Shown here in pieces: positions 2,469 to 62,033 of a DNA stretch of 64,000 bases. The notes beneath the pieces are model-generated. The model made no database searches and was not told the DNA's origin. It worked only from the letters and a program-made list of their open reading frames with translations. The translations under genes and the position numbers were made by a program. Position 1 is the first letter of the stretch, and each line of letters begins with the position of its first letter. This DNA comes from Prochlorococcus sp. AG-402-B19 (lineage in GTDB: Bacteria > Cyanobacteriota > Cyanobacteriia > PCC-6307 > Cyanobiaceae): positions 1 through 64,000 of the forward strand of contig QCHM01000005.1 in assembly GCA_003279615.1 (NCBI GenBank), in the 5' to 3' direction.

Positions 2469-3014
2469 ATGATTAATGATTATTTAAAATTAAAAAATTT
2501 AAGGATTAAAATGTATGAGCAAAAAAATAAAAATACTAATTCACCAAAAATTAATTTCATAGGATTTATAGTTTTAATTGGTATTTTATTTGCTATAGCA
2601 GATGCTGATCCAACTATTTTTTATTTGACATTTGCAATAATTGGTAGTCTATTTGCTTTATATAGAAGAAAGCAAGCACTTATAAAGAGAGAGGAAGACT
2701 CTTTAGCAAAAATAATACTTAACGATTACTTAATGACTAGGAATGCCACATTATCAATAATATCAATAATTTACACTCTTATTCAAGGAGCCTGCATTTT
2801 TCTATGTCTTTCATTATTAATTGATTCAATAGTTACCGCAATTAAATATCAAAACTTTGGATATACTTTTACTCATTTGGGATGGAGCGTTTTAGTACTT
2901 ATTGGACTTTTATTTTTTAGATTACTGCTTGAAGGATTAACCACTATTATACGTTTTGGAGAAGATTTTTCTCAGTTTAAAGATGATTTCAAAAAATACT
3001 CAAAAAACAAATGA
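2469..3014 (+). CDS. Hypothetical membrane protein
   Basis: I do not recognise this 181-residue protein. It has an N-terminal charged stretch, two hydrophobic segments near residues 28-66, a basic loop (YRRKQALIKREED), two further segments near 94-122 and 132-153, and a charged C-terminal tail rich in Lys and Asp. The tail GEDFSQFKDDFKKY is probably cytoplasmic. It may be co-transcribed with the DUF805 gene upstream. Codon use resembles the AT-rich surroundings. Confidence 0.6.
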   Translation: MINDYLKLKNLRIKMYEQKNKNTNSPKINFIGFIVLIGILFAIADADPTIFYLTFAIIGSLFALYRRKQALIKREEDSLAKIILNDYLMTRNATLSIISIIYTLIQGACIFLCLSLLIDSIVTAIKYQNFGYTFTHLGWSVLVLIGLLFFRLLLEGLTTIIRFGEDFSQFKDDFKKYSKNK

Positions 3015-3099
3015 ATATAAATTTAAAACTAGCTGTATAAATTATAATTATTTTATAAGTACTTAACTAAGTATTTTCTTATTATTTCAATTTTTGGAA

Positions 3100-3705
3100 T
3101 TATACGAATAATAATGAACTAATAATAATTGGTAAAAAAATCAATCCAACAATCATGAAAAATAAATCCCACTTTTTAAATTTAATTTCAGGGATATTTT
3201 CCAATTCTTTAGATAAAATAATAGATTGGTTTGCTTTTATTTGTAATCTAGTTATTTGCCAAGATGATATTGCTAATCCAATAACATTAAGCAAAAATAA
3301 TGAAATATTAATACCAATATCATCACTTACATTATGTCCTCTAAAAAAAACTTCCAATCCATAGAACCAAAATGCCCACCATGGTCCTGTTGCCCAGTTT
3401 TTATATCCAATAATTTTAAGTCTATCCCTTATTCTTCGAGCAATGCCAATAATATAAAAACTTAAAAAGAAACTTGACCAAAATGGGATTATATCTTTAT
3501 CTTTATGATATTTAATTGGAATTTTTATGTTTAGTTTGCTTAATTCAATTGCTCTTCTTTTAAAATGTCTCCAATGACGATAAAACCAAATAAAATGATA
3601 TAAATTACCAGTTATTATTGATAACCAGAAAATCTTTTGAGGACTCTCTGGATAAAACGTTGGTCGAAGTTCTTTAGTGAGTTTATCTAAATCCTCAACT
3701 TTCAT
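3100..3705 (-). CDS. DUF4234-like membrane protein
   Basis: The 201-residue product resembles DUF4234-type membrane proteins in the segment from about residue 19: an aromatic-rich helix reading FWLSIITGNLYHFIWFYRHW, followed by basic residues. Three more hydrophobic helices lie near residues 72-90, 133-150 and 179-200. No catalytic motif is visible. It converges with the upstream membrane gene, leaving about 85 bases between them. The family assignment is tentative and the function unknown. Confidence 0.55.
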   Translation of the reverse strand: MKVEDLDKLTKELRPTFYPESPQKIFWLSIITGNLYHFIWFYRHWRHFKRRAIELSKLNIKIPIKYHKDKDIIPFWSSFFLSFYIIGIARRIRDRLKIIGYKNWATGPWWAFWFYGLEVFFRGHNVSDDIGINISLFLLNVIGLAISSWQITRLQIKANQSIILSKELENIPEIKFKKWDLFFMIVGLIFLPIIISSLLFV

Positions 3706-4315: not shown

Positions 4316-4627
4316 CTATCTTAGAAGTTTAATCTCCTCGTAAATCTCTTGGGCAATTTTAAGATTTTTAGATTTAACTGCATCACCTGAAAGAAAAGTT
4401 TCAATTAGAGCAACAATAGAAGGTATAAAAGTCCAAACGAATATTGCATATAAAACCCCTATACCTATCTGCCCAAAGTAAAATTTATGAGCACCAAGAC
4501 CTCCAAGAAAGAACGCCAAGAGCGCATAGGTGCTTACTGATTTTTTCTGTCTTTCAAATTTATAACTAAAAACATTTCTTTCATTCTCAGATAATTGTTT
4601 CTGGATTTCTATTATCTTTAGATCCAT
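4316..4627 (-). CDS. TM2 domain membrane protein
   Basis: The 103-residue protein has a charged N-terminal half that may form a short coiled coil and then a TM2 domain. That domain has a first helix with AFFLGGLGAHKFYFGQ (about residues 38-53), a second hydrophobic helix GIGVLYAIFVWTFIPSIVALIE, and a short tail. The G-x-H-x-F-Y-x-G signature is diagnostic of the family. TM2 proteins are small membrane proteins of unsettled function. It sits upstream of tRNA-Ser, as a single-gene unit. Confidence 0.8.
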   Translation of the reverse strand: MDLKIIEIQKQLSENERNVFSYKFERQKKSVSTYALLAFFLGGLGAHKFYFGQIGIGVLYAIFVWTFIPSIVALIETFLSGDAVKSKNLKIAQEIYEEIKLLR

Positions 4628-4778
4628 TAATTTTAATCAAATATAAACTTATACTAATATCATAATCTTATTCAACTAGTCTTTCTAATATTTCTATACT
4701 TAAAGATATAAATGTTAAGAAAATATACACACAAAACAAAAATAATCCTTAGAAAAATCCAAGAAATTATAAAAAATG

Positions 4779-4865
4779 CGGAGAGGGTGGGATTCGAACC
4801 CACGGATAGTTTTATCTATCAAACGATTTCGAGTCGTTCGCTTTCGACCACTCAGCCACCTCTCC
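4779..4865 (-). tRNA. tRNA-Ser(CGA)
   Basis: An 87-nt class II tRNA folds on the minus strand. The acceptor arms GGAGAGG and CCTCTCC pair fully, with discriminator G. The anticodon loop CTCGAAA gives anticodon CGA, reading UCG serine codons. A long variable arm is present and the T-arm contains GGTTCGAAT. The 3' CCA is not encoded. Confidence 0.95.
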
Positions 4866-4938
4866 TTTGAAATAAGTTTAAATGATTCTTCTATTTTCTC
4901 TAAACAGAAAGGGTGTTAAAAATTTTATTATTAATTGT

Positions 4939-5964
4939 TTAATCCCAACCTGCCTTTCTCATAAGATTAATAGCTTTTTTATTATTTGCCCCTAATTGAT
5001 CAATGGTCACATCATCAGGAGTAAATCCTCCAAATTGAGTAACCTCATCCATTTTATTAAAACCAACCAAAGGGTGCTCAAATGTTGGGCCAGCCAACCC
5101 ACTACTCCCTTTTGGAGACGCAAGATACTCAAGGAGTTTAATAGCTTCTTCTTTATTTTCAGCATACTTAGCGATTCCGCCTGCACTTACATTCACATGA
5201 GCAGGATTAGGAGTAAGAACCTTTACTTTTTCAGCCAACCTTTGATCTTTCCTACCATTAACGCCTGCGAGCATTCTTGAAACATAATAGTGATTAACAA
5301 TACCTACACCACACTTACCCTGAGCAACAGCTCTTATAACACCTATATCTCCAGGGAAAAAAGGCTGAGAAATATTTGAAATCATACCTTTTAACCATTC
5401 TTTAGTTCGTGTTTCTCCTTTATTGACAATTTGATTAGCTACTAAAGATTGATTGTATGGACTGCTCCTTTTCCTCACACAAACAAGACCGTCTAAAGAA
5501 GAATTAGCAAGATCTGAATAATCTTTAATTGAATTTATATCGACTTTTTTAGGATTGGCGACCATAACTCTTACCCTTCTTGTCAGGGCATACCATCTTG
5601 CTTGAGGATCTCTATATTCCAATGGAACATTTTTATCTAATTCAGCCGATCTATATGACTGGAGAAGCCCACTTTTTGCTGCATTGCTAATTCGAGCCGC
5701 GTCAACAAGGAGAATCACATCAGCTTTAGAATCTGCTCCTTCCCTTTTCAATCTCTCAACTAGAGAAATGCCTGTAGACTCAATTAATCGAATTTTTATC
5801 CCAGTTTCTTCTGCAAATTTCTTGTATATTTGCTTATCAGTGTTGTAATGCCTGCCTGAATAAATCCTTACTTCTCTTTCAGATGCCTTAACATGATTAA
5901 AACTTGAAGAGACTAAAAGAGTACTAGCTACTAATGAAGAAAAAATACGCTTGATTAAATTCAT
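4939..5964 (-). CDS. futA: Iron(III) ABC transporter substrate-binding protein FutA/IdiA
   Basis: The 341-residue protein captures ferric iron in the periplasm for a FutABC-type importer. An N-terminal signal peptide (Lys-Arg, then a Leu/Val/Ser core ending near VKA) is followed by EVRIYSGRHYNTDKQIYKKF, the family signature whose tyrosine binds iron. Later conserved parts include WYALTRRVRVMVANP, FPGDIGVIRAVAQGKCG and VNHYYVSRML, which supplies further ligand tyrosines. Length is normal. The gene is divergent from a PKHD-type dioxygenase gene across a 149-base intergenic region, fitting shared iron-responsive control. The permease and ATPase genes are not in the window. Confidence 0.93.
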   Translation of the reverse strand: MNLIKRIFSSLVASTLLVSSSFNHVKASEREVRIYSGRHYNTDKQIYKKFAEETGIKIRLIESTGISLVERLKREGADSKADVILLVDAARISNAAKSGLLQSYRSAELDKNVPLEYRDPQARWYALTRRVRVMVANPKKVDINSIKDYSDLANSSLDGLVCVRKRSSPYNQSLVANQIVNKGETRTKEWLKGMISNISQPFFPGDIGVIRAVAQGKCGVGIVNHYYVSRMLAGVNGRKDQRLAEKVKVLTPNPAHVNVSAGGIAKYAENKEEAIKLLEYLASPKGSSGLAGPTFEHPLVGFNKMDEVTQFGGFTPDDVTIDQLGANNKKAINLMRKAGWD

Positions 5965-6039
5965 TAATCTATCTAGGGAAGGGATTAATATATTTACTTA
6001 GACTAGACAATAAGACCAGACTATATTTACCTTGGATAC

Positions 6040-6060
6040 TTTGATACGTATTTAAGTATA
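6040..6060. promoter_or_regulatory. Possible shared control motif, futA/dioxygenase promoter
   Basis: The 10-mer TTTGATACGT at 6040-6049, followed by GTATA six bases later, lies between divergent futA and the dioxygenase gene. The same 10-mer recurs at 8591-8600 upstream of the porin gene, again followed by GTATA. It could be a regulator site. It does not match the Fur consensus that I know. Confidence 0.3.
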
Positions 6061-6113
6061 ATTTGATAGCCTATTTATACTTTAGAATAGAAAAAAAGTA
6101 CTAAATATTTAAC

Positions 6114-6779
6114 ATGGAATATTTAACTCATGCTCTTTTGGAGAGATCAGATGCACTCCAAATAACACAAAAACTAAAAGCTGAGAAATCTTGCTGGGAA
6201 GATGGAAAAAAAACGGCAGGAAGCCATGCAGCAAAAATTAAAAATAATTTCCAACTAGATAAAAAATCAAATATATCTAATGAACTCAAAGATCTTGTTA
6301 TTAATAGAATTCTCTCAAATCCCCTTCTAAAAAGTTTTACATTACCAAGTTTAATTCATGGCGTGATGTTTACAAAATCTCTAGTAGGGAATGGATATGG
6401 CAAACATATTGATAATCCTTACATGCCCTCTGGAAGAAGTGATCTATCTTTTACTGTATTTTTAAACGAACCAGAGGATTATCAAGGCGGTGAATTATGC
6501 ATTGAGACGGTCAATAAAACTGAACAAATAAAATTATCTGCTGGAGAAATGATAATTTATCCAAGCACCCAACTTCATTCAGTAAATGAAGTCAATAAAG
6601 GGGAGCGTTATGTCTGTGTAGGCTGGATTCAAAGCTATATACAAAGTAATGAAGAAAGAAATTATTTATTCGGCCTTGATGCTGGGGCAAAAGGCTTGTT
6701 AGCAAAACATGGAAGATCCGAAGAATTAGATCTAATTTTCCAGGCATATAGCAATCTTTTAAGAAGATTAGGGGACTAA
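6114..6779 (+). CDS. PKHD-type Fe(II)/2-oxoglutarate dioxygenase (PiuC/YbiX-like)
   Basis: The 221-residue protein matches PKHD-type hydroxylases of the PiuC/YbiX group, normally about 225 residues. The iron triad is visible as H98 and D100 in GKHIDN and H155 in TQLHSV. R165 in GERYVCVGW is placed to bind 2-oxoglutarate. The N-terminal W-x-D-G-K-x-T-A-G region is family-typical. These enzymes often sit beside iron-uptake genes, and here it is divergent from futA. The substrate is unknown. Confidence 0.88.
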   Translation: MEYLTHALLERSDALQITQKLKAEKSCWEDGKKTAGSHAAKIKNNFQLDKKSNISNELKDLVINRILSNPLLKSFTLPSLIHGVMFTKSLVGNGYGKHIDNPYMPSGRSDLSFTVFLNEPEDYQGGELCIETVNKTEQIKLSAGEMIIYPSTQLHSVNEVNKGERYVCVGWIQSYIQSNEERNYLFGLDAGAKGLLAKHGRSEELDLIFQAYSNLLRRLGD

Positions 6780-6865
6780 ACGAATCACTTTATACAGCAT
6801 TAGGTAAAAAATGAACTTTCATTAGAAGGTTAGACCGATCAAAATAAATATAAATAAAATCTGAC

Positions 6866-7117
6866 ATGCGAAGTAAAACACCTATCGGAATATTTCTTGC
6901 TGCTGCAGCTGCGTTAGCCACAAATGCAATCATTCCAGACAATTCAATAGCCGGGGATAAACATGAACATAGTGATATGGGTGGTTTAAAGGAATGGACT
7001 ACGGATCAAGAAGCAGATGAGGATGGAAAACTTGACGAAGCTGCTCAAAAAGCAGCTAAAAAAGCAAAAAAAGCTGATATTTGTATCCCTATTGGAGAAG
7101 GAGAAAACTGCTGGTAA
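6866..7117 (+). CDS. Small secreted protein of unknown function
   Basis: The 83-residue product begins with a signal-peptide-like segment (basic start, then an Ala-rich core) and a probable cleavage near SIAGD. The mature part is short and charged, with HEHSDMGG, an acidic patch, an Ala-Lys run near residues 60-70, and a C-terminal CIPIGEGENCW with two cysteines that could form a disulfide. I do not recognise the family. It ends just before a bidirectional terminator shared with the convergent porin gene. Confidence 0.65.
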   Translation: MRSKTPIGIFLAAAAALATNAIIPDNSIAGDKHEHSDMGGLKEWTTDQEADEDGKLDEAAQKAAKKAKKADICIPIGEGENCW

Positions 7118-7174
7118 AAAAGTTTTCAATTATTTTCAAATGCCCTATAAAGGCGCATATGAAAATTTTTCTAT

Positions 7175-7208
7175 AAAAAAAAACGCCCCTTTTATGGGGC
7201 GTTTTTTT
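7175..7208. terminator. Bidirectional rho-independent terminator
   Basis: A 13-bp stem (AAAAAAACGCCCC at 7177-7189 with GGGGCGTTTTTTT at 7196-7208) encloses a 6-nt loop. A and T runs on the two sides let it work in both directions, ending both the small secreted-protein gene and the convergent porin gene. Confidence 0.93.
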
Positions 7209-7224
7209 ATCTAACTATGAAAAA

Positions 7225-8508
7225 TTAGAATTTAAACTCAGTCAAGAGTACACCACCTGTGATGTCATATTCATTACTAGATGTTGATCCAGTATCTGAT
7301 GAACCGAAAATAGCAGGAGTAATACTTACACCATCATTCACTTTGAATGTGTAATAAGCTTCCCAACGGTTGTTATCTTCTTCAGGATCTGATCCACCAC
7401 CTTTTACTTTAGTTGCAGCTTGTGCGGAACCATAAGCAAAACCTGCTCTGTTTCCATCTACAAATAAGTCTTTCCAACCAAGACCTATCATCCAACCTGC
7501 TGTATCTTCAGCTTCACCACTAGTAGCTTCGTCATAACTAGCAAAATCGTAACCTAATTGAACTTCAGGAATAGATCCAGATTCATCAGGTTTCCAGTAG
7601 CCTCTTAAACCATAAGCAGTCATGTCACCACCAGTACAAACAGTATCAGTAGAACTAGTTTCACCTACCAAACCTGTATGGAAGTAGCCGTCGTATCCAT
7701 TACAAGTTGCTGTTGGAGCACTCTTGTTAGCCATAGCAGCTGATACCTGCCACTTAGGTGAGCCATACTCAAGCTTAGTTAGCAAGAAACTTCTTGAATC
7801 ATCACCGCTAATACCCTTCGCGGAATTACCACCATCTTTAGAAGTGTAATTAACGCTTAAGCCGAATCTTCCTTCTGAGGGGTCATCAACCTCTTGAGTC
7901 CATGCAACACCAAAACCAGGGCTTGTGCTTGAACCATAAGCTGAACCATTACCACCTAAAGCAAATTGCTTAGTAACTGGCTTATAGATTGATGGAGCAC
8001 TAGCTAACATGTAGTAGTTCTCAATTTTTGGTCCAACCCAAACTTGCAGAGACTCTCCAACTGGGAATGTATACCAAAGCTTATCAACTTTTAAAGCATC
8101 AGCGTTTCCATTAGCTGCACTTAAATAAGTACCTTGTGATTTGTCTTTGAAATGATCACCTACGTTACCAGTCTTGATTCTTGTATAAAGATTATCCTCA
8201 CCAGTGAAACTTGTATTCAGATTTAACTGATACATATATTCCATGGTCATTTCATCAGTATCAGTCTCAGCATCATCATCAACATAACCGGTGATAAATG
8301 CAGCCTTACCAGTCAAAGTAGTTGTTGAAGAAAACTGACCAGCTTGGATTTCGCCTAGCTGAGCTTCTACGCCATCAACACGGGCTTGAATAACTTCAGA
8401 GCTTATATCTGAATCATTAGATACAGAAGTAATATCTGCATTTGCCGCTAATGGTGCAATTAAGCCCAAAGCAGCAGGAGCAACCAGCAAACGCTGAAAA
8501 AGCTTCAT
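7225..8508 (-). CDS. Outer-membrane porin (Som/OprB-like)
   Basis: The product, 427 residues from the chosen start, is an outer-membrane beta-barrel of the cyanobacterial Som type. It has a signal peptide (MKLFQRLLVAPAALGL to about residue 24), a short Ser/Asp and coiled-coil linker ending EAQLGEIQAGQFSS in place of a full SLH domain, then alternating barrel strands and a terminal LLTEFKF ending in Phe, as outer-membrane sorting expects. The open frame extends five codons upstream, but those codons overlap the Shine-Dalgarno and Yfr1-like site, so the ATG at 8508 is the better start. The solute is not evident; iron or small organic solutes are possible. Confidence 0.9.
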   Translation of the reverse strand: MKLFQRLLVAPAALGLIAPLAANADITSVSNDSDISSEVIQARVDGVEAQLGEIQAGQFSSTTTLTGKAAFITGYVDDDAETDTDEMTMEYMYQLNLNTSFTGEDNLYTRIKTGNVGDHFKDKSQGTYLSAANGNADALKVDKLWYTFPVGESLQVWVGPKIENYYMLASAPSIYKPVTKQFALGGNGSAYGSSTSPGFGVAWTQEVDDPSEGRFGLSVNYTSKDGGNSAKGISGDDSRSFLLTKLEYGSPKWQVSAAMANKSAPTATCNGYDGYFHTGLVGETSSTDTVCTGGDMTAYGLRGYWKPDESGSIPEVQLGYDFASYDEATSGEAEDTAGWMIGLGWKDLFVDGNRAGFAYGSAQAATKVKGGGSDPEEDNNRWEAYYTFKVNDGVSITPAIFGSSDTGSTSSNEYDITGGVLLTEFKF

Positions 8509-8512
8509 TGTG

Positions 8513-8521
8513 TCCTCACAC
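8513..8521 (-). promoter_or_regulatory. Predicted Yfr1 sRNA target site on porin mRNA
   Basis: The porin mRNA reads GUGUGAGGA from 5 to 13 bases upstream of its AUG. This is the exact complement of UCCUCACAC, part of the conserved single-stranded core of the cyanobacterial sRNA Yfr1. Yfr1 is known to repress porin (som) mRNAs in Prochlorococcus by this kind of pairing. The site overlaps the Shine-Dalgarno GAGG, so pairing should block translation initiation. Yfr1 itself is not in the window. Confidence 0.75.
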
Positions 8522-8663
8522 AAAATATTTTCGAATCCATACTAATGTATTCTTTTTGACATTCCAGAATGAGAACTTCTATATGTATCTTTTGATACGT
8601 GAATGTATATTATAAGAACAATTTATAATCAAAAGCTATGACATTGTTACTCAATATTAAAAC

Positions 8664-9533
8664 TTAATCTGCACAAAGAGGGAACCCTAAAGATTCTCTT
8701 TCCTCTAACCAAGCTTCAGCCACATTACGAGCTAAAGTCCTAATCCTTGCAATAATTTTAGTTCTCTCTGTAACAGATATTACTCCTCTAGCTTCTAATA
8801 AATTAAATGAATGACTACACTTAAGAACATAATCAAGACAAGGTGCAGGAAGCTTTTTTGAGATTAATTGACGAGCCTCTTCCTCATAAATATCAAACAG
8901 TTTTCTTAAATTATCTGAATTAGATTCTTCAAAATTATATCTACATTGACCTTTCTCAAAAGGAAGCCAGATATCACCATATTTATTAACTTGGTTCCAA
9001 GAAAGGTCCCATATATTATCAACATTTTGCAAATACATTGCCAATCTCTCAAGACCATAAGTAATCTCAATCGAGACAGGCTTGCAATCAAGACCCCCGC
9101 ATTGCTGAAAATAAGTAAATTGAGTAACTTCCATACCGTCAAGCCAAACCTCCCAACCAACGCCCCAGGCTCCTAAAGTTGGAGATTCCCAATTATCTTC
9201 AACGAACCTAATATCATGGTCCTTCGATGAAATTCCCAAGGCTTCAAGCGAAGACAAATAGATTTCTTGAATACCATCTAATGAAGGTTTGATAAGAACT
9301 TGATATTGAAAATAATGTTGGGCTCTATTGGGGTTGTCACCATACCTACCATCAGTTGGCCTTCTGCAAGGTTCTGGATAAGCAACAGCCCAAGGTTCAG
9401 GGCCAATTGCTCTCAAAAAAGAATGAGGATTCATTGTCCCTGCCCCTTTCTCTATGTCATAAGGCTGGAGCAATAAGCAGCCTCTCTTGCTCCAGAAATT
9501 ATTTAGGGAAGAAATTATATCTTGAAAAAACAC
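8664..9533 (-). CDS. glyQ: Glycyl-tRNA synthetase alpha subunit
   Basis: The 289-residue protein is the alpha chain of the bacterial alpha2beta2 glycyl-tRNA synthetase, which charges tRNA-Gly. The start [25 protein letters not shown] is diagnostic, followed by [19 protein letters not shown], the class II motif 2 region [19 protein letters not shown], and [13 protein letters not shown]. The C-terminal [22 protein letters not shown] is also typical. Length is normal. The beta subunit gene glyS is not nearby, which is common in cyanobacteria. Confidence 0.97.
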
Positions 9534-10108
9534 TAACTTTGCCTCCCATCAATATTGGGTGATGCAAGGATGAGTACATTTTTAGTTAGCTGCTTTAGAG
9601 GGGCGTGCCGTAGAAGAAAATGCAATTATGCGTTCACAATAAATTAATAAAATTCTAATTAGTAATCGCTAAGACTCAAACCAAAAAAGTTGAAACAGAA
9701 AACTTAGGGCTCAGAAATCAAATACCCTCCACATTCGCATAAATTGATTTATCAGAAATTGAGCGCTCAATAAGCATTTATACTCACTTAGTGAAAAAAC
9801 AATATCTACGTGAGAATAGCTTAATAATCTTATTTATAGAATCAAAAAAGCCAATAAATATGAATAAAATTATAATTCTTCAATAAATTTTTATTCATTA
9901 TTATTGAATTTAATAAAATAACCCTATTAGTTACAAATTTACATAAATACAGGCTAATAGTTCATACTAAAAAGATGCTTCAAAAAACTTATAGATCAAT
10001 TTATAAATAAAAAATGAAAAAAAAAGATCAATAGCTATGTTAGTACGTCTGTACCCATTGTTCCGATTCGTCACAAGCCTTATATTTAGCAAGTCAATGG
10101 CATGATCA
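9534..10108. other. AT-rich intergenic stretch before the accessory cassette
   Basis: No convincing gene lies in these 575 bases. A 25-codon frame at 9570-9647 starts after AAGG and carries three cysteines; it is too short to judge. The right end holds the LexA-like operator at 10042-10055. Base composition changes here, from very AT-rich to the clearly GC-richer DUF3102-like gene. Confidence 0.5.
10042..10055 (+). promoter_or_regulatory. LexA-like operator
   Basis: AGTACGTCTGTACC matches the published cyanobacterial LexA-box consensus RGTACNNNDGTWCB at every constrained position. It ends 53 bases before the ATG of the DUF3102-like gene, a usual operator position. This suggests DNA-damage control of the cassette downstream, but binding is not shown. 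Confidence 0.5.
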
Positions 10109-10723
10109 ATGGACTTATCGCCGACAGAGGTGGTCGAACTAGCCAATGTAAGCCTCAACAATGAAGTCACGAAGGGCTTGGTGCCGGCACAGGTAGAGTA
10201 CGTCAAAGAGTCGGTGGTAGAAATAAACGAGGAGCTAAGCTGCGTAGGTCAATCGTTAAGGGCGGTTGCGGCAAATCTTGCTGACATCAAGGGCAATATT
10301 AAGCCTGGCAACTGGAGAGCATTCCTGAAATCAGGAGCGATAAACTGCTCGGAGAGATTTGCAATTGACTTAGTAAGTGCATACACGAATTGGCTGGGAG
10401 GCTCCGACATAAACGACAATCTACTAGCATCATTGACGCCTAGGTCCCTAGCTTTAATGGGCAGCAAGGGAGTCACCGACAAAGAGCGCCAGAAAGTCTT
10501 TAAAGCAGTGGAGAGTGGCGAGAGAATGACCGAAGCCGCAGTAAGAGTACTGGTGAAAGGTAACAAGAAAAAATCAAAGTCAAGTTTTCCTAAAAATGAA
10601 ACCGAGAAAATAAAATCATTAAAAGAGAAGATAGAAGCCTACAAGAAAGTAATCAACAACCTTCAAGACGAAAACAGGAAGCTAAGCAAGTTACTATCTA
10701 ACAGGGAGAAATTGATTCCATAG
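10109..10723 (+). CDS. DUF3102-like protein, putative DNA-associated regulator
   Basis: The 204-residue protein has an all-helical core (about residues 30-150) resembling DUF3102 proteins of plasmids and phages: I-N-E-E-L, then ADIKGNIKPGNWRAFLKSG, and SERFAIDLVSAYTNWL. It ends in a basic linker (GNKKKSKSS) and a C-terminal coiled coil (KIEAYKKVINNLQDENRKLSKLL). A paralog lies at 61.1-61.8 kb beside tRNA-Ala. The first 450 bases are much richer in G and C than the surroundings, a sign of transfer. It sits behind a LexA-like site and leads a run of small genes. A DNA-binding or maintenance role is inferred. Confidence 0.75.
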   Translation: MDLSPTEVVELANVSLNNEVTKGLVPAQVEYVKESVVEINEELSCVGQSLRAVAANLADIKGNIKPGNWRAFLKSGAINCSERFAIDLVSAYTNWLGGSDINDNLLASLTPRSLALMGSKGVTDKERQKVFKAVESGERMTEAAVRVLVKGNKKKSKSSFPKNETEKIKSLKEKIEAYKKVINNLQDENRKLSKLLSNREKLIP

Positions 10724-10766
10724 AATTTAAAACCTATCCTAATCTTATCCAACACAATTCATAAAA

Positions 10767-10943
10767 ATGAACAAAATTGAATCACCAATCAATCAAAGCA
10801 AAGAGAGTAGACTTAAGGATTTAAGAATAAATAATTACAAACATGGGGTCACAAAGAAACTATTAGAAAAATACAAACCTGATAACTCAATAGCTAGAAC
10901 TGACAATTGCAAGAGAAGACACGAACAGAAGAGAGTAGCTTAA
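10767..10943 (+). CDS. Small basic protein of unknown function
   Basis: This 58-codon frame lies 43 bases after the DUF3102-like gene and 6 bases before the next small gene. The product is hydrophilic and basic, with Lys-Arg clusters and a tail CKRRHEQKRVA. There is no signal peptide or membrane segment. The tight same-strand spacing in the cassette is the main support that it is real. The function is unknown; nucleic-acid binding is possible from charge alone. Confidence 0.5.
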   Translation: MNKIESPINQSKESRLKDLRINNYKHGVTKKLLEKYKPDNSIARTDNCKRRHEQKRVA

Positions 10944-10949
10944 GAAACC

Positions 10950-11111
10950 ATGAATAAAAGCTCTATTAATAGAAAAGGATTTATCCACTTATACAATCCT
11001 AGGAAGGAGGGACGGGGGGCGTATGATGTACACTATATAAATGCATACAAAAAGATAGAAAAAACAAAAGATAAGCAAGTAATAATTGACAAAGAGAGGC
11101 ATGCAGCATGA
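10950..11111 (+). CDS. Small protein, translationally coupled to next gene
   Basis: A 53-residue frame starts 6 bases after the previous stop. Its TGA overlaps the ATG of the next gene in ATGA, the usual sign of translational coupling. The product is basic with aromatic residues (FIHLYNP, AYDVHYINAYKKI) and ends in ERHAA. I do not recognise the family. The overlap argues that both frames are translated. Confidence 0.5.
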   Translation: MNKSSINRKGFIHLYNPRKEGRGAYDVHYINAYKKIEKTKDKQVIIDKERHAA

Positions 11112-11428
11112 TTCCATTCTTTAGAACTATTACAGAATTAAAGATATTGACGGAAGCAAGAGATAAACATGATAGAGAAATAGATAGCCACGATCATGGA
11201 CACTTAAATGCAAGAAAAACACAATCAAAGAAATATAATAAATCAAGTAATAGAAAAGTAGTAAAGCTACCTGTAATACCGAAAATTAATAGACAGAAGT
11301 GGATAAAGAGAAAAGAAGCAGTATCAAAATTCTTTGATGAACTAGATTACAATAATCAAATACAATCATCATATGATCTTACATTATTGGAAAGTCAAAA
11401 GAAGTATGATCATCACGATATCGCTTAA
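11108..11428 (+). CDS. Hydrophilic basic protein of unknown function
   Basis: The 106-residue product begins inside the stop of the preceding gene (ATGA overlap). It is rich in His, Lys and Asp, with REIDSHDHGHLN near residues 26-37, a strongly basic middle (SKKYNKSSNRKVVKLPV), and an acidic tail ending HHDIA. The His-Asp cluster could bind metal, but this is speculation. It is followed after two bases by a membrane protein gene, so all belong to one cassette. Confidence 0.6.
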   Translation: MIPFFRTITELKILTEARDKHDREIDSHDHGHLNARKTQSKKYNKSSNRKVVKLPVIPKINRQKWIKRKEAVSKFFDELDYNNQIQSSYDLTLLESQKKYDHHDIA

Positions 11429-11430
11429 TC

Positions 11431-11760
11431 ATGAATAAATATAAATATAGTAAGCTGATTGAACATTTATCATTAACTCTAGTCTTATCGTTCTTCTTTA
11501 TAAAAAATATATATCTGGTATTAATAGGTATTATACTAGCATTATATAAGCTAAATGAAAAATTTCTAAGTAAATTAATGATTTTATTAGAAATAAAAAA
11601 TTTAAAGAAAGAAAATATAATATTAGATACTTCTATAAAAAAAGATAATGAAACTAAAGAGTCGAATAATAAAATTAGAAAACTTAGCCTTGTTGAAACT
11701 ATAGAAGAGACAGGTTTCATCCCAACTGGTCACGACCAAGGAAAAAGAGATGCAGCATAA
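11431..11760 (+). CDS. Small two-helix membrane protein
   Basis: The 109-residue product starts 2 bases after the previous stop. Two hydrophobic helices lie at about residues 11-23 and 26-41, followed by a charged, probably cytoplasmic tail of about 65 residues. The tail ends SLVETIEETGFIPTGHDQGKRDAA. Its last codons resemble those of the 53-residue cassette protein (GCAGCA then stop), so both products end in Ala-Ala. The membrane anchor with a soluble tail suggests it tethers something. The family is not recognised. Confidence 0.6.
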   Translation: MNKYKYSKLIEHLSLTLVLSFFFIKNIYLVLIGIILALYKLNEKFLSKLMILLEIKNLKKENIILDTSIKKDNETKESNNKIRKLSLVETIEETGFIPTGHDQGKRDAA

Positions 11761-11914
11761 TAAGTAAATATATAAAGTATATTTAATATAAGTTATATAT
11801 AAGATAATATTTTGATTAAGGAAATATAAATAAAATAGTTATTACTGATATTTCCAAGTAAGTACTGTACAAAATAATATTATCAAGCTAGTCTAAGATA
11901 TATACACTAACAAA

Positions 11915-12109
11915 ATGAATAACAGGCAAAAAAATATTGAAGATATATTAGTTAAGGGACTATCTCATATTTTAAAAAGAACTATAGAAATTAATCCAAA
12001 GGATCAATTAGCAATTGCCCAAGAATATAAAGAATGGATTAATTGTATTTCAGCCGATGATTTCTCAAAACAGGAGATACTTATAATAGATAAATTTACT
12101 TTTAATTGA
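11915..12109 (+). CDS. Small helical protein, paralog of the 14974-15174 product
   Basis: The 64-residue product contains a central motif I-E-I-N-P-K-D-x5-Q-E-Y-K-E-W-I followed by QEIL. A second gene 3 kb away encodes the same pattern (EINRIDRSVLYQEFKEWI and QEIL), so the two are paralogs. Both are soluble and predicted helical. The function is unknown. It stands alone, about 155 bases after the small-gene cassette, in very AT-rich DNA. Confidence 0.6.
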   Translation: MNNRQKNIEDILVKGLSHILKRTIEINPKDQLAIAQEYKEWINCISADDFSKQEILIIDKFTFN

Positions 12110-12817
12110 TAGATAGAAATTTTAATCTAAAAATATACTAATAAACAAAAATATTAGAATATATTGCATTATATTCTAATATTATATATATATTGTATTA
12201 TCTTCTAACATAGAAATAATCAATATATATATAATCTCGTATTTTAGCTTTATTAAATCTCGAATAATCTAAATTATGAAAACTCACAAACCAGAAGAGG
12301 ATTGACAAAGTTAATACATATGTACTACAATAAAGTGTCTTGATTCAAATGAAGAGTCTTAATTGAGTTAACTGTTTCATAAACATCATTTAATTATCTA
12401 AGCATGCTTAATGAATTGGTTAATACAAGCAGAAGATTCTTCGCATATTTATCCAACCAAATGACTGGAGCATCTAATGACATCTTTAAGCACTTCAAGC
12501 TGGGAATCTGTGACGAACCGAAAGCTTTCAAGCGAACAAGGAATAGGCAGAGAAGTACTCATAACAACCTCTACAAGAGAATTAGTTGAATTTTACTGGA
12601 CAAACCGAAAACGGTTTTCAGGAGGATATAGAGGGTTCCCAGTCGACGTAAGCTAAAAATAAAATTATAGACACTGGATCAAAAAAGATCCCATGCCAAA
12701 TTTACATCCTTGATAGAGAATGATTGATCTAGGCTAAGAATTAGCTTGAAAAAATTGTTTTGAGAACCTAAATATTTACTTTTCAATTACTTTTATTATT
12801 AATTACAAATGAATAAA
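12110..12817. other. AT-rich stretch with one doubtful small frame
   Basis: The left part is extremely AT-rich, with ATATATA tracts around 12180-12240. A 61-codon plus-strand frame (12404-12589) has somewhat higher GC and a basic translation with no recognisable family; it may be a small gene, a remnant or an RNA. A short hairpin CGAAAACGGTTTTCAG lies near 12607. Nothing else is visible. Confidence 0.4.
12404..12589 (+). CDS. Doubtful small basic protein
   Basis: The 61-codon frame starts at ATG and encodes a basic product with RRFFAYLSNQMTGASND and then KRTRNRQRSTHNN. Its GC content is above that of the flanks, which favours some function. No paralog, clear ribosome binding site or neighbour supports it. 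It could equally be part of a non-coding RNA or a decayed gene. Confidence 0.3.
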   Translation: MLNELVNTSRRFFAYLSNQMTGASNDIFKHFKLGICDEPKAFKRTRNRQRSTHNNLYKRIS

Positions 12818-13042
12818 TTAAAGATCATTTTTATCCGATATTCCTTCATATAAATTTGGTGCAAGTATTAAAAATAAAATCCACCAAATAATAATAAAGA
12901 AACCTAATATTGATGTAATAATGAAATTATGAAACAAAATCCAACTAATTATAAGGACTAATGTCCCAAAACCAATAATTGACCAGGGTTGACACCAGTA
13001 TGGTTTTGAATCCCAAAAACTTTCTTTTGAATTTGATTCCAT
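12818..13042 (-). CDS. DUF6737-like small membrane protein
   Basis: The 74-residue protein has the cyanobacterial signature F-W-D-S-K-P-Y-W-C-Q-P-W-S-I near residues 9-22, then two hydrophobic helices (about 23-38 and 42-60), and a short tail containing APNLYEG. The W-D-x-K-P-x-W-C-Q-P-W motif is, as far as I recall, that of the DUF6737 family, conserved in cyanobacteria without an assigned function. It probably sits in a photosynthetic or plasma membrane. It lies on the same strand as the next small gene upstream. Confidence 0.7.
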   Translation of the reverse strand: MESNSKESFWDSKPYWCQPWSIIGFGTLVLIISWILFHNFIITSILGFFIIIWWILFLILAPNLYEGISDKNDL

Positions 13043-13089
13043 TTAAATAAACAAAACTAGCAAAGGTAAGTAATATTTACCGATTTAAA

Positions 13090-13386
13090 TTATTTCTCTT
13101 CTTCAGCAGGTTTCTCTTCTTCAGCAGGTTTCTCTTCTTCAGCAGGTTTCTCTTGAATAGCTTTGATTTCTACAATATCTTCTATTGAAGTATTCGTTTC
13201 ATTTTTTTTTAAAATTTGAGAGACCTCCTTCTCGGGGTCAGAGTCAGAACCCTTTAGTAAAAACTTCAAAACATATCCAAGAGCAACAAACAAAGCGATG
13301 GGAAGTACAAATCCCAAGAGCACTTTGTAAAGAATTACTCCTATGACGATTACTCCAATAGCAATAAGAATGTTTTTGCTGTTCAT
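13090..13386 (-). CDS. Membrane-anchored protein with Glu-rich repeat tail
   Basis: The 98-residue protein has an N-terminal hydrophobic region of two close helices (about residues 5-40), an acidic middle segment (SDSDPEKEVSQIL), and a C-terminal tail in which KPAEEE is repeated three times. The tail is encoded by three 18-base direct repeats. Such repeats can change in number by slippage. It probably sits in the membrane with an exposed acidic tail. The function is unknown. Confidence 0.6.
   Translation of the reverse strand: MNSKNILIAIGVIVIGVILYKVLLGFVLPIALFVALGYVLKFLLKGSDSDPEKEVSQILKKNETNTSIEDIVEIKAIQEKPAEEEKPAEEEKPAEEEK
13093..13152. repeat. 18-base tandem repeat inside a gene
   Basis: Three nearly perfect copies of the unit TCTTCTTCAGCAGGTTTC (plus strand) encode the KPAEEE repeats of the membrane-anchored protein. 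The unit is in frame, so copy-number change would lengthen or shorten the tail without a frameshift. Confidence 0.8.
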
Positions 13387-14973: not shown

Positions 14974-15174
14974 TTGAAAAACAATCCAACACTTGAAGAA
15001 ATAATTTCAGTCACTCTTAATTGTATATTAATCAGAATGACTGAGATCAACAGAATAGATAGGTCTGTTCTGTATCAAGAATTTAAAGAATGGATTATAA
15101 ATTCTGATGAAAATGATCAGGGTCAAGAAATATTGTGCTTAAGGTACTTACAAAATGATGAAAGAATAAATTAG
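14974..15174 (+). CDS. Small helical protein, paralog of the 11915-12109 product
   Basis: The 66-residue product shares EINxxDxxxxxQEFKEWI and QEIL with the gene at 11.9 kb. The in-frame start is TTG at 14974. An ATG lies just upstream at 14963, but it is separated from TTG by a run of eight A, one more or one fewer than needed in steps of three, so that ATG soon hits a stop. Either TTG is the true start, or the A-run has slipped or is bypassed by slippage. The function is unknown. Confidence 0.5.
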   Translation: MKNNPTLEEIISVTLNCILIRMTEINRIDRSVLYQEFKEWIINSDENDQGQEILCLRYLQNDERIN

Positions 15175-61119: not shown

Positions 61120-61800
61120 TTAGCTGTTATTTAAATCGAATTTGTATTTAAATAATTTTTCTTCTAATACTCTAATTTTTTTCTTGAGCTGAATATTTTC
61201 AATAAAAAGTGTGTTAAACTTTTCAATCTTTTCTTCATCAGGAATTTTATCTGCAGTTGATTTTGCTTTTTCAATTAATTCATCAATAGTTTTTTGTTTT
61301 TGCCTAGGCTTTCTAAGGAAACAAGATAGATCGACTTCTGTAAAGTTGTTTTCTTTATTTAAATGCTTTTCTATTTTAAGCCTTAAAGAGGGTTCAACTT
61401 TTCCAATCTTTGCCAAGGTTCTTGCTGAAACTTGAGTTAAAGCAGCTTCTGGTATAGAACTATTTTCTAACCAGTTTTCATAGGCCGAAGCTAAATCTCT
61501 TGCGACTCTTCCAGGCACGACTAAAGCACCTGAATCAGTCAATTCAACCCAGTTCTTATTCCTAACTAAATTCTTTGCTTGAGACAATAATTTGGCTACT
61601 TGAAGAATAGATTTTCCTGCTTTTTCTAATTCCTTATTTGTCTCATTTATTTTTACTGATAATTCTATTTCTGTTCTTTTTTCTAATCCGAACTTTCTTA
61701 CTAAAATTGAGTTATTAAATTTATCTAATTTGCCGTCATTCATAAACTTGCAACTCTCAACTCTAACATAATAACTAGCAAATTTAGAATAGCTAGCCAT
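61120..61800 (-). CDS. DUF3102-like protein beside tRNA-Ala
   Basis: From the ATG at 61800 the product has 226 residues; the frame opens ten codons earlier at TTG 61830, which lies inside a palindrome. An ATG at 61743 is also possible. The core INETNKELEKAGKSILQVAK, then NKNWVELTDSGALVVPGRVARDLASAYENWL and SARTLAKIG, aligns with the DUF3102-like product at 10.1 kb (KPGNWRAFLKSG ... FAIDLVSAYTNWL ... TPRSLALMG). A basic linker and a C-terminal coiled coil (FIENIQLKKKIRVLEEKLFKY) are shared. It lies just downstream of tRNA-Ala, where integrated elements keep such genes. Confidence 0.75.
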   Translation of the reverse strand: MASYSKFASYYVRVESCKFMNDGKLDKFNNSILVRKFGLEKRTEIELSVKINETNKELEKAGKSILQVAKLLSQAKNLVRNKNWVELTDSGALVVPGRVARDLASAYENWLENSSIPEAALTQVSARTLAKIGKVEPSLRLKIEKHLNKENNFTEVDLSCFLRKPRQKQKTIDELIEKAKSTADKIPDEEKIEKFNTLFIENIQLKKKIRVLEEKLFKYKFDLNNS

Positions 61801-61812
61801 CAAGCCTTGAGT

Positions 61813-61831
61813 TTTGGACGATTCGTCCAAA
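61813..61831. repeat. Palindrome TTTGGACGATTCGTCCAAA
   Basis: Nine-base arms TTTGGACGA (61813-61821) and TCGTCCAAA (61823-61831) are exact reverse complements about a single central base. The pair ends 12 bases upstream of the ATG at 61800 of the DUF3102-like gene, fitting an operator. Two copies of TGCACTAA lie further upstream, at 61868-61875 and 61880-61887. Confidence 0.75.
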
Positions 61832-61960: not shown

Positions 61961-62033
61961 TGGAGCCAAGCGGACTCGAACCGCTGACCCCCTGCATGCC
62001 ATGCAGGTGCTCTACCAACTGAGCTATGGCCCC
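61961..62033 (-). tRNA. tRNA-Ala(GGC)
   Basis: A 73-nt cloverleaf on the minus strand has acceptor arms GGGGCCA and TGGCTCC (one G-U pair) with discriminator A. The anticodon loop ATGGCAT between CCTGC and GCAGG gives anticodon GGC. The T-arm has GGTTCGAGT. CCA is not encoded. Confidence 0.95.

Follow-up and report, generated by a model that had tools for sequence, protein, structure and literature searches.

A conserved Prochlorococcus operon behind a LexA-type box may release a brief pulse of small proteins during DNA damage

Why do five tightly packed genes follow a LexA-type box in Prochlorococcus sp. AG-402-B19, and do they form a passing acquisition or a settled part of the genome? The genes in question, here called A to E or the main operon, lie in a 64,000-nucleotide (nt) stretch of contig QCHM01000005.1, and this whole stretch is referred to as the window; compared loci and genomes carry L and G numbers, respectively. 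An initial sequence-only reading had taken the layout to suggest a DNA damage-controlled accessory cassette, with a first gene of foreign, GC-richer composition. As judged by comparison with related genomes, A to E constitute a fixed operon of one Prochlorococcus genus (LLI-like) rather than a patchy cassette, and the conserved control region and C-termini suggest how the operon might work.

The layout described by the sequence-only reading, namely the position of the box, the gene order, the intergenic gaps of 43, 6 and 2 bases, the ATGA overlap between C and D, and the step in GC content, was confirmed in the sequence (Table 1). The same applies to the sequence properties of the proteins downstream of A, three of them basic and one, E, with a hydrophobic segment (hydropathy maximum of 2.35, starting at residue 17). 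Median pairwise ratios of nonsynonymous to synonymous polymorphism (pN/pS) were 0.10 for A, 0.63 for B, 0.31 for C and 0.38 for D (28 orthologs each) and 0.54 for E (27 orthologs), and by this measure the five open reading frames (ORFs) behave as genes under purifying selection. The GC content is 0.448 in A, compared with 0.322, 0.340, 0.289 and 0.235 in B, C, D and E and 0.310 in the window. Since high values are kept in all 28 orthologs of A (0.410 to 0.469), its GC-richness represents a persistent trait and not a sign of recent arrival.

Full-length orthologs of A, 82 to 88% identical, were found in 27 other genomes, which brings the count, own genome included, to 28 of the 41 genomes of the genus. 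The gene is present in 13 of the 17 genomes that are at least 90% complete and in all seven that are 99 to 100% complete (G001 to G007). The four remaining genomes of at least 90% completeness were inspected at the site: two also lack a glyQ match, and in two the contigs break off 162 and 164 bases away from the start of glyQ, so the site itself is missing from these assemblies. This check covered those four genomes, and the other nine without A are all less than 80% complete. The order A-B-C-D was retained in 28 of 28 loci and E followed in 27, one contig ending first, so the co-occurrence of all five genes, which the sequence-only reading had named as support for its proposal, was borne out. 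The relatives that carry a name, representing 21 loci, are Prochlorococcus single-cell genomes and assemblies; one of these loci (L159) is a 53% homolog. Orthologs of D share a DSGQRKRYIRS motif that is common to other small ORFs. Among the 400 family genomes searched, full-length D occurred only in the 28 A-bearing ones; the other matches were partial, none stronger than an E value of 5.6e-4, and an SGQRKRYLRS motif is present in at least two. At L105, a 58-amino-acid (aa) open frame (2977-3153) with a D-like SGQRKRYLRSL motif ends in AIA and adjoins an ORF ending in GIA.

A glyQ gene, recognized by eye, lies 474 to 5204 bases upstream of the proposed operator of A in 21 of the 28 neighborhood sources, some genomes being represented twice; three sources had no match to the operator expression and four had no glyQ within reach. 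The longer glyQ-operon gaps hold varied genes. In G003, glyQ is about 9 kb away from the operon, and between them are found an operon with an A paralog, a T7-like RNA polymerase (Pfam, 1.5e-36) and an integrase that scores above the Pfam cut-off; in G032, another A paralog sits just upstream of the main operon. At L091, the element with integrase, T7-like RNA polymerase and A-paralog operon that separates glyQ from the main operon occupies positions 4500-13100. Regarded as a possible integrase-bearing mobile element, the main operon showed no integrase of its own, and no variable presence at the site was seen, the four absences inspected being assemblies that lack the site. A recent foreign cassette was rejected because the operon is fixed in the genus, beside glyQ, and a reading as an accessory cassette of recent foreign origin is not supported.

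The control region of A was conserved as well. The consensus RGTACNNNDGTWCB has its sole window match in the box upstream of A, where 0.08 matches were expected; since at least one match also appeared in 7 of 100 shuffled sequences, the box as a single site is only suggestive. It is conservation in relatives that raises it above chance: in upstream regions aligned at the start codon, a TAC-N4-GTA box (TACNNNNGTA) stands at exactly −67 in 27 of 28 orthologous loci. The exact consensus fit on which the sequence-only reading had relied proved less general than the box itself, in that the LexA-type class and its position are conserved, whereas the strict published-type consensus is satisfied in 10 of the 28 orthologs, most having GTAT and not GTAC in the second half. 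Downstream of the box, the alignment of the 28 upstream regions contains TTGTTCCGATTCGTCACAAG and then TATATT. Mean column identity was 0.87 in the box, 0.94 from −53 to −30 and 0.75 from there down to the start, with 0.47 to 0.49 further upstream. The pattern TTGTNNCGAWTCGNNACAA, which was derived from the A-promoter site itself, matched without mismatches once per genome in eight of eight genomes searched, always at the A promoter. The comparison thus identifies a conserved LexA-type box, to which LexA may bind, followed by a conserved putative operator.

Window A matched no Pfam family at its cut-off, DUF3102 (PF11300) included, although weak DUF3102 matches were obtained for 7 of 40 members of the A family (best, 0.0066). 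Its best PHROG match is a family of unknown function (E value of 6.6e-4). An AlphaFold2 model built with 40 homologs (pLDDT of 84.6) combines a long helix with a helical domain and a coiled coil at the C-terminus. Comparison of the model with PDB folds gave no match at an E value of 0.001 or below, whereas in BFVD, searched by Foldseek, the first-ranked match is a DUF3102 protein (E value of 6.1e-6, probability of 1.00, TM score of 0.49) and DUF3102 is named in 4 of the 10 best viral fold matches, the first included. As modeled, A has a DUF3102-like fold, and this viral match supports the DUF3102-like gene of the sequence-only reading; the protein is basic (pI of 9.3). We infer that A would bind the inverted repeat in its own promoter as an autorepressor.

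The proteins encoded downstream of A often end alike. An [AVILM]A end is found in 28 of 28 C orthologs (AA in 25, VA in 3), 28 of 28 D orthologs (AA in 1), 20 of 27 E orthologs (AA in 15) and 17 of 28 B orthologs; no A ortholog ends in A. All five relatives examined have the transfer-messenger RNA (tmRNA) tag ANNIVSFSRQTAPVAA, with PVAA at its end. The resemblance of this end to the C-termini of C, of D and of many B and E orthologs suggests a degron role, and ClpXP recognizes the ends of ssrA tags in other bacteria.

A profile of 20 homologs revealed A-like genes in 42 of the 400 family genomes, 28 of them in the genus of the window. Loci other than the main operon were divided into a first set of 16, the source of the ideas, and a held-out set of 10 fetched later, which includes a nearly identical pair (L119 and L120) and one locus at the end of a contig (L125). 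The first set pointed to three features: small downstream ORFs ending in -AA, a palindrome GACGA-N-TCGTC and a LexA-type box. Boxes with p < 0.05 were present at 9 of the 16 loci (at L099 inside an open frame), 18 to 24 bases before the best palindrome match at eight. The palindrome with at most one mismatch was found at 9 of 16 first-set and 4 of 10 held-out loci, against controls that, as for the box, included the A promoters themselves; consensus-free symmetry at p < 0.05, for which the controls excluded these promoters, was seen at 4 of 16 and 4 of 10. At L117 and L123, the palindrome position upstream of A is surrounded by long inverted repeats, which by eye extend over some 40 bases or more.

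The tails were compared in ORFs downstream of these homologs, and the main-operon orthologs, as one evolutionary unit, were left out. AA ends occurred in 10 of 33 ORFs of the first set and 5 of 19 of the held-out set; among background ORFs they occurred in 1 of 280 short ones and in none of 187 long and 31 opposite-strand ones. The corresponding Fisher p values, 4e-10 for the first set (a discovery and not a test) and 3e-6 for the held-out set, are too small because ORFs within a locus depend on one another; L122 alone supplies three of the five AA cases in the held-out set. For the looser [AVILM]A end the counts were 10 of 33 and 7 of 19, versus 9 of 280. The comparison thus points to an enrichment of AA ends behind A homologs. 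The small proteins concerned group into several sequence families, which reappear in varying combinations from locus to locus; B weakly resembles a 55-aa ORF after the A paralog of L093 (1.8e-4), and D is weakly linked to a membrane protein of L094 (8e-5). When neighboring proteins of five loci were examined for recombinases, those of L091 and L124 exceeded the Pfam cut-off, those of L094 and L101 matched weakly and that of L096 had no match; a tRNA scan of 14 loci placed one A homolog (L103) beside tRNA-Ala. Taken together, the main operon looks like a domesticated member of a wider module family, some members of which are on integrase-bearing elements.

We propose that the operon delivers a LexA-released, A-autoregulated pulse of degron-bearing proteins, a reading to which we assign an even chance of being right. 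DNA damage would lead to cleavage of LexA and free the box, upon which RNA polymerase would start at the adjacent promoter and A to E would be made. A would then bind the inverted repeat, which spans the −35 element and the spacer, and shut its own promoter. B, C, D and E would be short-lived, their -VA/-AA C-termini being read by ClpXP-type proteases; it is the likeness of these termini to the -VAA end of the tmRNA tag that suggests they would act briefly. In this way, effectors that are small and basic or membrane-bound would appear in a short burst during damage.

Several observations count against this proposal. In the control region, strong LexA boxes were not replicated in the held-out homologs (1 of 10), TTGTNNCGAWTCGNNACAA with up to two mismatches gave counts like those of its reversed control, and the main operator, with a symmetry of 8.5 (p = 0.40), is not beyond chance and lies two mismatches from the GACGA/TCGTC consensus (p = 0.21). 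TTGTTC agrees with TTGACA at three of six positions, a poor sigma-70 −35 element absent from the list of the consensus scan, so it is conservation and spacing that support the promoter call; the region contained 17 promoter-like hits compared with 19.2 in shuffles, and a search of the region for a terminator marking the operon end found none. As for the tails, they are missing in 11 of 28 B and 7 of 27 E orthologs, an AA or [AVILM]A end occurs at only 12 of 26 non-main homolog loci (7 of 16 and 5 of 10), and the draft genome to which the window belongs, itself incomplete, yielded no tmRNA. Finally, genome-wide counts of RGTACNNNNGTAYY in eight genomes did not exceed those of its reversed control, and 8 of 10 other boxes inspected in this genome have no intact AA/VA-ending ORF closely downstream.

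This lack of enrichment means that single RGTACNNNNGTAYY hits elsewhere are not to be trusted, and together with the 18 of 28 orthologs that depart from the strict consensus it favors the view that a regulator different from LexA recognizes the box. We consider this quite unlikely, as the lexA gene of this genome (L134; recognized by eye) is itself preceded by a box of the same class, GGTACATATGTATT, although the available part of Li et al. 2010 (PMC3091678) gives a different site, AGGACGAATGTACT, for lexA of NATL2A; the NATL2A recA box in that source, CGTACGTCTGTACT, has GTACGTCTGTAC in common with the window box. The genome contains 16 distinct RGTACNNNNGTAYY sites, 2 of them in the locus from A to G, and 10 of the other 14 were inspected. 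Two precede small ORFs ending in DAA (L133) and EVA (L135), one precedes lexA and one a DUF1651 ORF that ends otherwise (L128); the box of L127 precedes a frame-disrupted copy of the L135 gene, those of L126 and L131 lie inside genes, and three are ambiguous. The boxes of L128, L133 and L135 adjoin two DUF1651 genes and a 94-aa gene ending in CPEVA. In marine Synechococcus, according to the accessible part of a study (PMC3744912), mitomycin C induces recA, lexA, umuC and many island genes, which makes LexA control of such loci plausible; a predicted box is nevertheless no proof of control, since only 15 of 27 and 10 of 46 box-predicted genes were significantly upregulated there.

The two DUF1651 genes beside LexA-type boxes also bear on another explanation, because DUF1651 genes respond to cyanophage infection according to the available portion of a further report (PMC5490813). 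The operon could be a phage-response or anti-element module protecting either the cell or the glyQ-operon hot spot, with A like an immunity repressor and small proteins that act on the invader, and the varied genes taken up by the glyQ-operon gap, such as the G003 integrase, T7-like RNA polymerase and A-paralog operon and the G032 paralog, would fit such a role. We regard it as improbable: no PADLOC family matched A to G, genus-wide fixation is unusual for defense genes, and G003 and G032 carry the main operon together with an A-paralog module, so any exclusion by the operon is incomplete. We see an equally small chance that the -AA/-VA ends are not degrons but docking tails for a PDZ-type protease or partner, or by-products of gene overlap. 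Tsp/CtpA-type proteases also read nonpolar C-terminal tails, and C does overlap the next gene (GCATGA); against this, D and E end without overlap and yet keep the tail with varying synonymous codons, and several different small-protein families at other loci have the tail in common. The by-product variant was rejected because only C overlaps its neighbor. Least probable, and in our view highly unlikely, is that the locus is a relic in which the control region of an old element is kept with no role for the host. Some relatives are on integrase-bearing elements and B is weakly constrained, but the low pN/pS of A and the conservation of promoter and operator, which the flanks do not share, argue otherwise.

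Table 1. Positions of genes and control elements in the window
Feature	Position	Strand	Remarks
LexA-type box AGTACGTCTGTACC	10042..10055	+	starts 67 bases before the A start codon; 53 bases between box and ATG 10109
Inverted repeat TTGTTCCGATTCGTCACAA, proposed operator for A	10058..10076	+	conservation at this site
Proposed promoter	10058..10086	+	−35 TTGTTC 10058-10063, 17-base spacer, −10 TATATT 10081-10086
Gene A	10109..10723	+	204 aa; DUF3102-like fold (model), C-terminal coiled coil; proposed autorepressor
Gene B	10767..10943	+	58 aa; basic; C-terminal RVA
Gene C	10950..11111	+	53 aa; motif LYNPxxEGxGxYDxxYIN; C-terminal AA
Gene D	11108..11428	+	106 aa; C-terminal DIA (most orthologs DVA)
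Gene E	11431..11760	+	109 aa; N-terminal hydrophobic segment; C-terminal DAA
Gene F	11915..12109	+	64 aa; conserved neighbor of the operon; upstream elements of its own, likewise conserved
Second promoter TTGACA-18-TACAAT	12302..12331	+	LexA-type box AATACATATGTACT 12313-12326 between hexamers
Gene G	12477..12656	+	59 aa (STRELVEFYWTNRKRFSGGYRGFP); proposed second LexA-controlled gene
Paralog of A	61120..61830	−	33% identity, E value of 6.8e-14; exact palindrome GGACGAATCGTCC 61816-61828 at its start

Further features of the window surround the main operon. Gene F is probably outside it: conserved TTTACA...TATACA-like elements of its own lie upstream, and on this ground F was rejected as an operon member. 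A structure model of F was poor (pLDDT of 63.5). The gene is recognizable in 26 of 28 loci (the L029 ORF is not F-like and L018 has none), and weak F paralogs occur at 14974-15174 of the window and at L093 and L094, also near A paralogs. The second promoter is the best of the 17 promoter-like hits in the region, a total not above that of shuffles. Of the 28 sources searched, in which two genomes appear twice, 20 contain G and 19 its box, which corresponds to 18 and 17 genomes; the G ORF is conserved at 59 to 64 aa, and its L106 ortholog matched no Pfam family. A tRNA-Ala-like sequence (by eye, about 61961-62028) adjoins the window paralog of A.

The locus shares traits with several known systems. 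It has the same box class and promoter position as the cyanobacterial LexA regulon and a resemblance to the recA box of an NATL strain, and it differs by the GTAT of most second half-sites; the available part of Li et al. 2010 (PMC3091678) names no such operon. Phage and bacterial DUF3102 proteins (PF11300) share the modeled fold of A, which here heads an operon with a LexA-type box. SulA, YneA and SidA are SOS-induced, short-lived small proteins, and the main operon would resemble them in LexA control, small size and the presence of one membrane protein, and, as proposed here, in short life. Four proteins in one operon, a putative autoregulator and terminal -AA/-VA residues set it apart from these proteins as they are generally described. 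Integrases near A homologs (L091 and L124, weakly L094 and L101) and the location of L103 beside tRNA-Ala recall tycheposons and integrase-bearing picocyanobacterial islands, from which the main operon differs in being fixed and having no integrase of its own. In architecture only, a conserved putative DNA-binding protein, a palindrome and changing small proteins are also found in anti-CRISPR loci with Aca repressors; here, in contrast, the regulator gene comes first, a LexA-type box is present and no match to phages or viral contigs was found.

The searches behind the last point were tblastn against phages with window A, a D ortholog (L004) and the L092 and L122 A homologs, and scans of IMG/VR with A8 and A9, all without a match; tblastn of the L092 homolog against plasmids found none either. 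PADLOC returned zero families for A to G and two homologs. B to E had no Pfam match, and no toxin or antitoxin family was among the Pfam or PHROG matches of A to E, whose layout comprises five genes. No description of this operon, and no work on this subject among papers mentioning DUF3102, was found in the literature searched, most subscription journals being outside its reach.

LexA regulons of streamlined marine cyanobacteria are mostly known from predicted boxes, and what this locus adds is a fixed and constrained operon and an adjacent second LexA-boxed gene; in the libraries searched, the proteins had no match to a described family. More broadly, and tentatively, since we think it somewhat less probable than the pulse proposed for the operon itself, picocyanobacteria and mobile elements may share modular "pulse cassettes" in which a DUF3102 autorepressor, often a LexA box and swappable small proteins with genome-encoded ssrA-like tails are combined. 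Transcriptional release and proteolysis would together set the length of the damage response, and one such cassette would have become fixed in the SOS regulon of LLI-like Prochlorococcus. The terminal -AA rule would make it easy to test whether degrons encoded by bacteria and their elements time the damage response, and it may serve as a search key for further modules.

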